A stretch of DNA of 64,000 bases, taken from Desulfotomaculum nigrificans DSM 574. GTDB taxonomy: Bacteria > Bacillota > Desulfotomaculia > Desulfotomaculales > Desulfotomaculaceae. Location of the stretch: positions 2,718,255 through 2,782,254 of the forward strand of contig NZ_KI912183.1 of assembly GCF_000189755.2 (NCBI RefSeq), in the 5' to 3' direction. The translations under genes and the position numbers were made by a program. Position 1 is the stretch's first letter; each line of letters begins with the position of its first letter. This document shows, piece after piece, positions 45,497 through 48,491 of the stretch. The notes beneath the pieces are model-generated. The model had not been told where the DNA came from, did no database searches, and saw only the letters and a program-made list of their open reading frames with translations.

Positions 45497-45958
45497 GTGG
45501 TAGATTATCAACTGGTAAAAATGCAGATAGACCACATTCCCGGGGTGCTAGAAATAGAGCAGGTCTCTTTTTCCACCCCCTGGTCCCAGCAGGCCTTTAC
45601 CTATGAAATACTGCAGAATAACTTTGCCGATTATATAGTGGCAGTGCAGGGGGATAAGGTGATAGGTTATGCCGGGATGTGGCTGGTGTTGGATGAAGCT
45701 CATATCACCAACGTAGCTGTACACCCGGCATACCGGGGGAAGAAACTGGGGCAGGCCCTCATGACAGAGCTGATGCGCCGGGCTATGTTGATGGGGGCCG
45801 TGCGCATGACCTTAGAAGTAAGACCATCCAATAAGGTGGCCAGGGAATTATATAAAAAGCTTGGCTTTCAAGAAAAGGGCCGGCGTAAAAAATATTATAC
45901 CGATACCAATGAAGATGCCATTATTATGTGGGCAGACTTGTGCCGGAGGGTACCATGA
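45497..45958 (+). CDS. rimI: Ribosomal protein alanine N-acetyltransferase
   Basis: The 153-residue GNAT protein contains [21 protein letters not shown] for acetyl-CoA binding and [19 protein letters not shown], diagnostic of RimI. It acetylates the N-terminal alanine of ribosomal protein S18, and often sits with tsaB-tsaD. GTG at 45497 is chosen, 10 nt after AGGA; the GTG at 45488 is too close to it. Its TGA overlaps the tsaD ATG. Confidence 0.92.
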
Positions 45959-46977
45959 GTATAACCATACTAGGAGTAGAGACATCCTGTGACGAGACCG
46001 CTGCTGCGGTACTGGTGGACGGAGTAGAGCTGCGTTCCAATATTGTGGCCTCCCAGGTGGAGGTACATAAAAAATTTGGCGGGGTCGTACCAGAGGTGGC
46101 ATCCCGCAAGCATCTGGAGAATGTCAACCCGGTAATTATGGAGGCTTTGGACAAGGCGGGCATAACCTTAAGGGACATTACCGCAGTGGCCGTGACTTAC
46201 GGGCCGGGTCTGGTGGGGGCGCTGCTGGTGGGAGTGGCGGCAGCCAAGGCTTTAGCCTATGCACTGGATATACCGCTGATAGGGGTCAACCACCTGGAGG
46301 GACATATAGCGGCTAATTTCCTGGCCCGGCCGGATTTGGAATTTCCCCTGCTTTGCCTGGTGGTCTCCGGCGGTCATTCAGATTTGGTGTACATGCCGCA
46401 CCGGGGGGTATACCAACCCCTGGGCCGCACCAGGGATGACGCGGCCGGAGAAGCCTTTGATAAAGTGGCCCGGGCCATGGGCCTGGGATACCCGGGTGGC
46501 CCCTTGATTGATAAACTGGCCCGGCAAGGAGACCCGGAGGCCATCAAATTTCCCCGGGCCTTTCTGGAAGAGGGAAGCCTGGACTTTAGTTTTAGTGGCC
46601 TTAAGTCCGCCGTGTTAAATTACCTGAACCGGGCCAGGATGTTAAACGAAGAAATCAATATGGCCGATTTAGCCGCCAGTTTTCAACGGGCGGTGGTGGA
46701 AGTTTTAGTGGATAAAACCATTGTCGCCGCGGAGAGATGTGAAGTGAAGACCATTATGATGGCCGGTGGGGTGGCCGCTAACGGCGGCTTAAGAAGTTTG
46801 CTGGAGCAAAGGGCCGCAGATGTCGGCTGCCGGGTGGTCTATCCGCCCCTAAATCTGTGCACCGATAATGCGGCTATGATTGCCTGTGCTGGCTATTACA
46901 AATTTTTAAGAGGTGATTTTGCCCCCCTGACCCTCAATGCCATCCCGGGCCTGCCCCTGGGGGAGGACAGGTATTAG
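45955..46977 (+). CDS. tsaD: tRNA N6-adenosine threonylcarbamoyltransferase TsaD
   Basis: The 340-residue protein has [14 protein letters not shown], the metal ligands in [10 protein letters not shown], and [11 protein letters not shown], with GGPLIDKLA. It transfers threonylcarbamoyl to A37 of ANN-decoding tRNAs. The ATG at 45955 follows GGAGGG by 4 nt and overlaps the rimI stop as ATGA. Last gene of the thiL-tsaE-tsaB-rimI-tsaD run. Confidence 0.96.
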
Positions 46978-47040
46978 TAAACATAGGCAAGCCTCTTACA
47001 AGACAACGGTAACAGTATACATAAATCGTTTACTTTTTAA

Positions 47041-47091
47041 GGCTTATCCACTGTTCTGTGGAACATTTTTTGTGGATAATGTGGATAAGCC
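47041..47091. promoter_or_regulatory. DnaA-box cluster forming a hairpin
   Basis: Two perfect DnaA boxes, TGTGGATAA at 47071-47079 and 47080-47088, lie head to tail with no gap. An inverted TTATCCACT (one mismatch) is at 47044-47052. The outer bases also form a perfect 11-bp inverted repeat, GGCTTATCCAC (47041-47051) with GTGGATAAGCC (47081-47091). No replication gene is near, so this may titrate or bind DnaA away from oriC, or regulate the next gene. Confidence 0.6.
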
Positions 47092-47123
47092 TGTTAATAA
47101 CTTAGCAAATAAGGACTTATCTT

Positions 47124-48491
47124 GTGAATAGACCTGTGAAACACAACGAACATTATATTAACGCTTTAATCCTGCAGGCCGCCCGTCAGGCTAATATACT
47201 GCCCATCACCTCCGTGTGTAATGTGGCCTGCCTGTTCTGCAGCCATCGACAAAACCCACAGGGTGTGGAAAGTTTTCATATCGGACACCGGACCTTAGAG
47301 GAAATAAGGAGTTCCCTGGCTTTTATTAATCCACAGCAACCTGTGATTATCGGGGAATCGGTGACCCGGGTGATGGAAGGGGAGCCCTTTTATCATCCAC
47401 AATTCCCCCAAATCTTAGAGGAAGTACGGCGCCGTTTTCCCCATACCCCGATCCAAATTACTACCAACGGTACTATGTTAGACCAAGCTACGGTGGAATG
47501 GCTGGCCGAATTATCCCCCATAACCATTTACCTGTCGTTAAACAGTGCCAGTTCTGCCAATCGCCGGCTGCTAATGAAGGATAGGCGGGCTAACCGGTCA
47601 GTGGAGGCAGCCAGGCTGCTGGGTGAAAGGGGCATCGAGTATCAGGGCAGCATCGTGGCTATGCCCTGGATCACCGGTTGGGACGACCTGACCCGGACCA
47701 TAACCTACCTGGACCGGTGCGGGGCCCAGGTAATCAGGATATTTCTGCCCGGTTATACCAGGTTAGCTAAAGAAGAGCTTAAGTTTCCTCTGACCATGTG
47801 GGATCAATTGAGGTCCTTCGTTGGCCGAGTAAGACAGCAGGTCAGGGTACCGGTGGTTTGCGAGCCTCCTAAAATAGATAATTTTAAGCCCGAAATAGTC
47901 GGCATCATACCAGGCAGTGCCGCTGACCGGGCCGGCTTAAAACCAGGCGATATCCTGGTTGCGGTCAGTGGTAAGCCGGTCCTAACCAGAGTACACGGGT
48001 TTCACCTGACTTATCAACTGGCCAATCCCATGTTGGAAATACAAAGAGAAAACCGGCCTTTGGCCGTCCCGTTAACCAAAGGGGCCCGCGAACGCTCAGG
48101 GTTAGTCATGGATTATGACTTGGACCCGGCTTTGTTTGAGGATATCCGGAAGGTGGTGCGGTTCCACCGGGCCAGCCAGGTCTTACTGCTCACTTCCCCA
48201 TTGGCTTATACCAGAATGGTGTTGGGGGTGAATAAGTTTTACCCGGAACCAGGGCAGTTAAAAGTGTGCCGGGTGGCCAGCCGGTTTTTCGGTGGTTCCA
48301 TTATGGCCGCCGGGTTGTTAACGGTAGCGGACTTTAGCCTTGCTCTGCAGCAGTATCTGGCAGCTTCAGCCACAAAACCGGAGTTGATCTTACTTCCCGC
48401 CATTGCCTTTGACCAGCGAGGGCGGGACCTGGCGGGTGAGACTTACCATAAACTGGCGGAAACCTTTGGCATACAGGTGGAAGTTATATAA
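47124..48491 (+). CDS. Radical SAM protein with PDZ and DUF512-like C-terminal domains
   Basis: The 455-residue protein starts with a radical SAM domain whose cluster motif is CNVACLFC (C33-x3-C-x2-C), followed by ITTNGTML. A PDZ domain occurs at about 255-310 (VGIIPGSAADRAGLKPGDILVAV). The end, CRVASRFFGGSIMAAGLLTVAD ... ILLPAIAFDQRG, resembles the C-terminal DUF512 domain. The common DUF512 order is PDZ, radical SAM, DUF512, so here the PDZ has moved inside. The reaction is unknown. It starts with GTG and has a weak Shine-Dalgarno. Confidence 0.8.
   Translation: MNRPVKHNEHYINALILQAARQANILPITSVCNVACLFCSHRQNPQGVESFHIGHRTLEEIRSSLAFINPQQPVIIGESVTRVMEGEPFYHPQFPQILEEVRRRFPHTPIQITTNGTMLDQATVEWLAELSPITIYLSLNSASSANRRLLMKDRRANRSVEAARLLGERGIEYQGSIVAMPWITGWDDLTRTITYLDRCGAQVIRIFLPGYTRLAKEELKFPLTMWDQLRSFVGRVRQQVRVPVVCEPPKIDNFKPEIVGIIPGSAADRAGLKPGDILVAVSGKPVLTRVHGFHLTYQLANPMLEIQRENRPLAVPLTKGARERSGLVMDYDLDPALFEDIRKVVRFHRASQVLLLTSPLAYTRMVLGVNKFYPEPGQLKVCRVASRFFGGSIMAAGLLTVADFSLALQQYLAASATKPELILLPAIAFDQRGRDLAGETYHKLAETFGIQVEVI

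Follow-up and report, generated by a model that had tools for sequence, protein, structure and literature searches.

A compact row of predicted DnaA boxes stands directly behind tsaD in the window, by which we mean the whole stretch of 64,000 nucleotides analysed here. The boxes keep a fixed spacing, are retained behind tsaD in relatives and recur in a second copy elsewhere in the same genome. On balance, we favour the interpretation that the row is an ancient DnaA-box cluster of fixed geometry outside oriC, a predicted counterpart of the gcp/ydiF cluster of Bacillus subtilis that would sequester DnaA and restrain initiation. Because the same row with the same spacing is found behind tsaD in distant relatives, and because a known DnaA site of B. 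subtilis lies at this place, the row is probably an old part of chromosome replication control. Clusters outside oriC are already known in B. subtilis. The open-licence literature searched gave no mention of the phylum-wide conservation, of a fixed spacing from B1 through B4 or of a copy beside comFC, and the primary papers on the B. subtilis clusters may say more. A compact array that stays behind one gene, in one direction and with one spacing, from Desulforamulus, the probable genus of the window, to Bacillus, with a further copy beside comFC, indicates that spacing matters. The array adds evolutionary depth to the gcp cluster of B. subtilis and offers a minimal sequence of about 80 bp for testing.

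The row of boxes and its setting

Table 1. Features of the array and its flanking genes, in positions of the window
Feature	Position	Strand	Remarks
tsaD (gcp), tRNA t6A threonylcarbamoyltransferase gene	45958..46977	+	Pfam TsaD 6.4e-101; ORF end 46977
Inverted near-match DnaA box TTATCCACT	47044..47052	+	One mismatch; stem partner of B2
B0, half-conserved upstream box (TGTGG... half-site)	47057..47065	-	Consensus TGTTCTGTGGA in alignment A1
B1, perfect DnaA box TGTGGATAA, first of gapless pair	47071..47079	-	
B2, perfect DnaA box TGTGGATAA, second of gapless pair	47080..47088	-	
B3, weaker box TGTTAATAA, same direction	47092..47100	-	3 bp after B2
B4, weaker box TGTGAATAG, same direction	47123..47131	-	34 bp after B2
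Radical SAM/PDZ/DUF512 gene, downstream neighbour	47124..48491	+	Pfam; varies among relatives

The features of the array are listed in Table 1, in which the start of tsaD is a choice made inside the listed open reading frame. A sequence-only reading of 47041-47091 had described two perfect boxes that abut and a third, inverted near-match box, and both descriptions hold, with zero gap in the pair and one mismatch in the inverted box. The stem that it had noted is also present, at a length of 12 bp (47040-47051 paired with 47081-47092) in place of the 11 bp claimed, and its remark that the site lies away from replication genes is right as regards dnaA, which is 472 kb distant. B3 and B4 fall outside 47041-47091, and both keep their position among relatives. 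B4 overlaps the GTG at 47124 that is the listed start of the radical SAM open reading frame; this gene is a neighbour and is judged to lie outside the element.

The predicted DnaA boxes of the array are real and go beyond chance expectation. When one mismatch is allowed, 34 boxes are found in the window against 17.3 expected, a number reached in none of 100 shuffles, and three such boxes within 45 bp did not occur in any of 200 windows simulated with a first-order Markov model. The whole genome contains 44 exact boxes and a single occurrence of the exact tandem, and 0.0003 gapless same-strand exact pairs are expected genome-wide. Its grouping of several boxes in roughly 100 bp, at a distance from dnaA, gives the array the make-up of a cluster outside oriC. 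A repeat or mobile element was considered and rejected: no other exact tandem exists in the genome, and the second copy has the box core and the spacing in common with the first, not the flanks (by eye). Two further exact boxes in opposite directions, their starts 44 bp apart, lie at G000:C1:1372127-1372179, far from dnaA.

Conservation of the boxes, the stem and the neighbouring gene

At the level of the order, tsaD was found in 41 genomes, the window's own included, and 40 tsaD 3' regions were used after G023, with a partial tsaD, was dropped. The sequence-only reading had proposed conservation in relatives as a check and had named loss of the boxes with retention of the hairpin as the refuting outcome; the opposite was found. 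The tandem with at most one mismatch is present in 30 of the 40 regions and in all nine of the genus (L011-L018, L058), and of these 30 arrays 11 (7/9 in the genus) carry an inverted box within 70 nt upstream, while 12 have a perfect stem of at least 8 bp. No array stands behind tsaD at the ten remaining loci (L038, L039, L040, L050-L054, L056, L057). In alignment A1 of the 30 sequences, all 23 invariant columns fall inside the nonamers B1-B4, with seven of the nine columns of B3 invariant and the TGTG of B4 likewise. What is conserved is thus the boxes, neither the hairpin nor the downstream gene.

These data make it most improbable that the array is merely an RNA hairpin, a terminator or mRNA 3' end whose letters resemble DnaA boxes by chance. 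The stem of 12 bp, the predicted fold of 47030-47110 (-24 kcal/mol, z = -3.99), the place directly after the gene, on the tsaD strand in 48 of 48 phylum-level cases, and one plus-strand terminator-like match, in which a 5-bp stem (47047-47062) is followed by a T run, all fit such a hairpin. However, terminator-like sites number two against 0.7 in shuffles, among the nine genus loci only the window has a T run behind the short stem, and RNAalifold predicted no pair and no conserved fold on the 30-sequence alignment. An Rfam search at E <= 1 gave no match, and the same array was found again beside comFC. A conserved stem followed by a T run, the mark of an intrinsic terminator, was looked for in the relatives, and neither stem nor T run is kept there. 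The terminator or RNA-element reading was rejected because there is neither fold conservation nor an Rfam match, the boxes outlast the stem and the T run belongs to the window only. Our preferred reading as a DnaA-box cluster agrees here with the earlier judgement that the site is not a mere chance terminator, the boxes being kept in relatives with no conserved fold.

The gene on the far side of the array changes. With a small query set of our own, the first recognised downstream gene at 27 order loci was a radical SAM gene in 15, a paaK-like gene in ten and an ACT gene in two; a paaK-like gene is the first recognised neighbour at the seven other genus loci scanned, and the window has the radical SAM gene instead. 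The gene names paaK, ProS, TrmB, hpf, csp and comFC were assigned by their fit to the Pfam matches. A role of the array as a DnaA-controlled transcription element for tsaD or for the downstream gene is improbable. Its position between tsaD and the radical SAM gene, with B4 over the listed GTG, would suit such a role, and the sda promoter of B. subtilis is a DnaA target (excerpts of PMC4447404). However, the first recognised downstream gene varies over the 27 order loci while the array is present in 27 of 27, and the B. subtilis cluster lies downstream of both gcp and ydiF, as described in the excerpted text of PMC4447404. A scan of 46800-47300 for sigma-70-like sites likewise gave none on the plus strand and two on the minus strand against 0.8 expected. 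Simple control of the downstream gene was rejected, since the neighbour differs among relatives. The sequence-only reading had spoken of DnaA-titrating or DnaA-regulated sites; the titrating part stands, whereas DnaA-regulated gene expression is the less likely part because the downstream gene changes and the array stays.

The phylum-level genome set, which we take to be Bacillota, was searched with R1, a model built from sequence only and anchored on no gene. Among the matches listed, R1 was found at E <= 1e-3 in 211 of 299 genomes and was missing in 88, the Bacillus genome G176 included. tsaD was looked for in 74 genomes picked for their strong R1 hits, the top of the list and so a non-random choice, and in six Bacilli; it was found in 71 of the 74. 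Among the matches listed, an R1 hit lies within 1.5 kb 3' of tsaD in 48 of these 71 genomes, at -5 to 830 bp from the gene and on its strand in all 48 cases; when the nine genomes used to build R1 are removed, the hit is behind tsaD in 39 of 62. For 26 of the 74, including three with no tsaD found, the matches listed contain no R1 hit behind tsaD, and at least three of these genomes (G082, G158, G222) carry the tandem itself within 200 bp 3' of tsaD. When one mismatch is allowed, the tandem is present, among the matches listed, in 204 of the 299 genomes; a reversed-pattern control matched in four (G062, G206, G251, G267), by reading of the matches listed.

The spacing of the weaker boxes is fixed as well. 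Over 156 distinct elements, many of which come from related genomes so that the counts are not independent, TGTGG of B4 follows B3 at 21 bp in 3 counts, at 22 bp in 41 and at 23 bp in 14 (58), with a smaller peak of 24 counts at 32-35 bp. The upstream TGTGG (B0) precedes B1 by 14 bp in 24 counts, by 15 bp in 17 and by 16 bp in 8 (49 over the 156 elements). A scrambled control word gave at most three counts at any offset.

Second copy, Bacillus counterpart and candidate function

The window's own genome is one contig of 3.05 Mb. In it dnaA occupies 2292637-2293932, which puts the array at a distance of 15.5% of the chromosome; given this position of dnaA, a reading of the start of contig C1 as oriC was rejected. 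A CRISPR-like array with a 37-bp repeat is found near the contig end (L042, in the last 2.3 kb of G000:C1). The second array, TGTGGACATTGTGGATAAGTCTGTTAATAAC..., is at G000:C1:2083987-2084054 (L002), between csp/hpf and comFC, and its neighbours carry S30AE, cold-shock and zinc-ribbon/phosphoribosyltransferase domains by Pfam. It lies 6.8% of the chromosome from dnaA, on the side opposite to the tsaD array, and here too 34 bp separate the pair from the following TGTGG. Both copies were placed in six complete genomes, of which five have one copy on each side of dnaA and G087 has the two on a single side; the comFC neighbourhood was checked in five of the six, the second site of G004 being placed by its R1 hit alone. 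Over 15 complete genomes, a list of those with available coordinates that leaves out G053, G293 and others and takes the element positions of G006, G008, G016 and G032 from tsaD coordinates, the tsaD copy lies 8.8-27.5% from dnaA. Since the position of tsaD itself may explain this distance, the distance is weak evidence for a position rule.

The possibility that the array is a secondary origin or a DnaA unwinding site has very little probability. The same-direction tandem boxes adjoin an A+T-rich stretch, and same-direction DnaA boxes are also a feature of the Bacillota oriC2 unwinding region. However, the DnaA-trio is written with n > 3 in the excerpted text of PMC7561715, and by eye just two consecutive trio-like triplets follow the boxes of the window. 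Furthermore, dnaA has boxes of its own on either side and, by eye, a trio-like run after it, whereas the window array is far from dnaA. A secondary origin was therefore rejected on the lack of a DnaA-trio run by eye.

The place and geometry of the array recur in Bacillus, where ten tsaD 3' regions were sampled from the genus. In genome G364 (locus L261), which we take to be B. subtilis 168, the gcp 3' region carries TGTGGATAGTGTGTATAA and, 34 bp on, TGTGGATAA, which is the spacing of the window. The same 34-bp gap is found in five more of the ten regions and a gap of 33 bp in two; L241, from outside the ten, also has 33 bp. In the last two of the ten, L264 and L269, the 600 bp after tsaD contain no abutting pair. 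The L261 region holds six boxes with at most one mismatch in 350 bp. It matches R1 weakly, with 18.1 bits over model positions 16-84 and an E of 3.3e-5 in 21 kb; at whole-genome scale (R1, E <= 1e-3), among the matches listed, G300 of the Bacilli is matched and G176 and G229 are not. Both arrays thus lie 3' of tsaD/gcp and have a gapless same-direction pair with the next box exactly 34 bp on, which is the gcp type of arrangement. Their relative distance from dnaA is also alike, 15.3% in B. subtilis, with dnaA taken to lie at position 410, and 15.5% in the window.

Because such clusters are known in B. subtilis, where gcp/ydiF is one of six outside oriC, the window array is a member of the outside-cluster kind by place and geometry. 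The gcp/ydiF region is one of eight major DnaA regions bound both in vivo and in vitro and is region 4 of the in vitro table of Smith and Grossman, with ten sites and an apparent Kd of 0.15 uM (ATP) or 0.33 uM (ADP); at 55 nM it shows a 16-fold preference for ATP (all from excerpts of PMC4447404). The B. subtilis cluster has its ten sites downstream of both neighbours (excerpts of PMC4447404), whereas the window array is compact, with a perfect pair and a third box TGTTAATAA. The earlier proposal of a DnaA-titrating type of site therefore fits best, its place being that of a known strong B. subtilis DnaA region (PMC4447404, in excerpt).

By analogy with B. subtilis, DnaA would bind B1 and B2 of the window array tightly. 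Further DnaA molecules, pointing the same way, would then bind cooperatively at B3 and B4, and at B0 or the inverted box. A short head-to-tail oligomer of DnaA may in this way start at the strong B1/B2 pair and extend over B3 and B4. At 15.5% from dnaA, and with the second copy by comFC on the other side, the array would be duplicated early after initiation and could then hold extra DnaA so that oriC is kept from early refiring. We infer both the oligomer and the restraining role of a single site. The restraint is suggested by the published joint deletion of the six clusters outside oriC in B. subtilis, which leads to early initiation, an effect that becomes strong only with the loss of the full set of six (excerpts of PMC5295017 and PMC13220808); one review, as excerpted, terms this effect minor. 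Because about 10-fold overproduction of DnaA does not cause over-initiation in B. subtilis, simple titration is disfavoured there (excerpts of PMC13220808).

Simple sequestration explains the conservation of the boxes. The fixed spacing, however, exceeds the needs of simple titration and suggests a defined complex. DnaA control outside oriC is best known from datA and DARS of Escherichia coli. The array may accordingly be asked to do more than hold DnaA, and we give some, though minor, weight to a Bacillota counterpart of datA/DARS, in which a DnaA oligomer would alter the nucleotide state of DnaA by ATP hydrolysis or ADP release. Orientation and spacing are conserved at two loci, outside oriC as datA is, and the essential boxes of datA share one direction; the DARS1 and DARS2 cores are likewise two loci that share their box spacing, and in them box I opposes boxes II and III, which the genus form with an inverted box resembles (excerpts of PMC5742627). 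The 16-fold preference of the B. subtilis counterpart for ATP-DnaA at 55 nM (PMC4447404, in excerpt) also favours this reading, as does the statement in the excerpted 2026 review that the regulators balancing ADP-DnaA and ATP-DnaA in B. subtilis are unknown (PMC13220808). However, the excerpts of the same review call datA and DARS absent from B. subtilis, and those of a 2017 review give no identified B. subtilis regulator of DnaA-ATP/ADP conversion (PMC5295017). Furthermore, datA and DARS2 require IHF (PMC5742627, in excerpt), whereas B. subtilis is described as being without IHF in the excerpts of PMC13220808. In the window the inverted box stands opposite two same-direction boxes, an arrangement that is DARS-like as regards box direction; unlike the opposed box of the DARS core, it is not generally kept (11/30).

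A broader form of the same idea, which we put forward tentatively and consider unlikely, is that a phylum-old pair of fixed-geometry arrays, one at tsaD and one at comFC/hpf, flanks oriC in Bacillota as a datA/DARS counterpart. Such a pair would set DnaA activity through a head-to-tail oligomer of defined size, not by simple soaking up.

Arrays beside other genes

A DNA-pattern scan of named genomes with no gene anchor found at least 120 loci, with titles for 80 of 120. The first 120 comprise 36 loci by tsaD, 40 by comFC/csp/hpf and 44 by other genes or contig ends. At all 36 tsaD-adjacent loci the array is 3' of the gene and on the same strand, 20-263 bp off. When the 29 'other' loci of the first 80 were clustered by their flanking proteins, they fell into small groups with no third constant neighbour; the largest is of a binding-protein/transporter type, with seven proteins in six loci (one representative scanned).

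In metagenome-assembled genomes (MAGs) labelled Clostridia, the array stands near a class II tRNA synthetase group at six loci (L127, L128, L140, L146, L160, L174) and near a Methyltransf_4 group at four (L151, L169, L187, L189), one representative being scanned in each group. The array is also found in MAGs labelled Aerophobetes, Armatimonadetes, Sumerlaeota and Actinobacteria (L130, L156, L164, L138, L179, L183), and at three Aerophobetes-labelled loci it is behind tsaD. Transfer, a wrong bin or an older origin may account for the array in MAGs with labels outside Bacillota. In three large Bacilli genomes (G062, G253, G105), Paenibacillus-like by our guess, the tandem is on the tsaD strand at a distance of 2.7-3.2 kb 3' of the gene, with a T-box-like leader sequence, by eye, between tsaD and the tandem.
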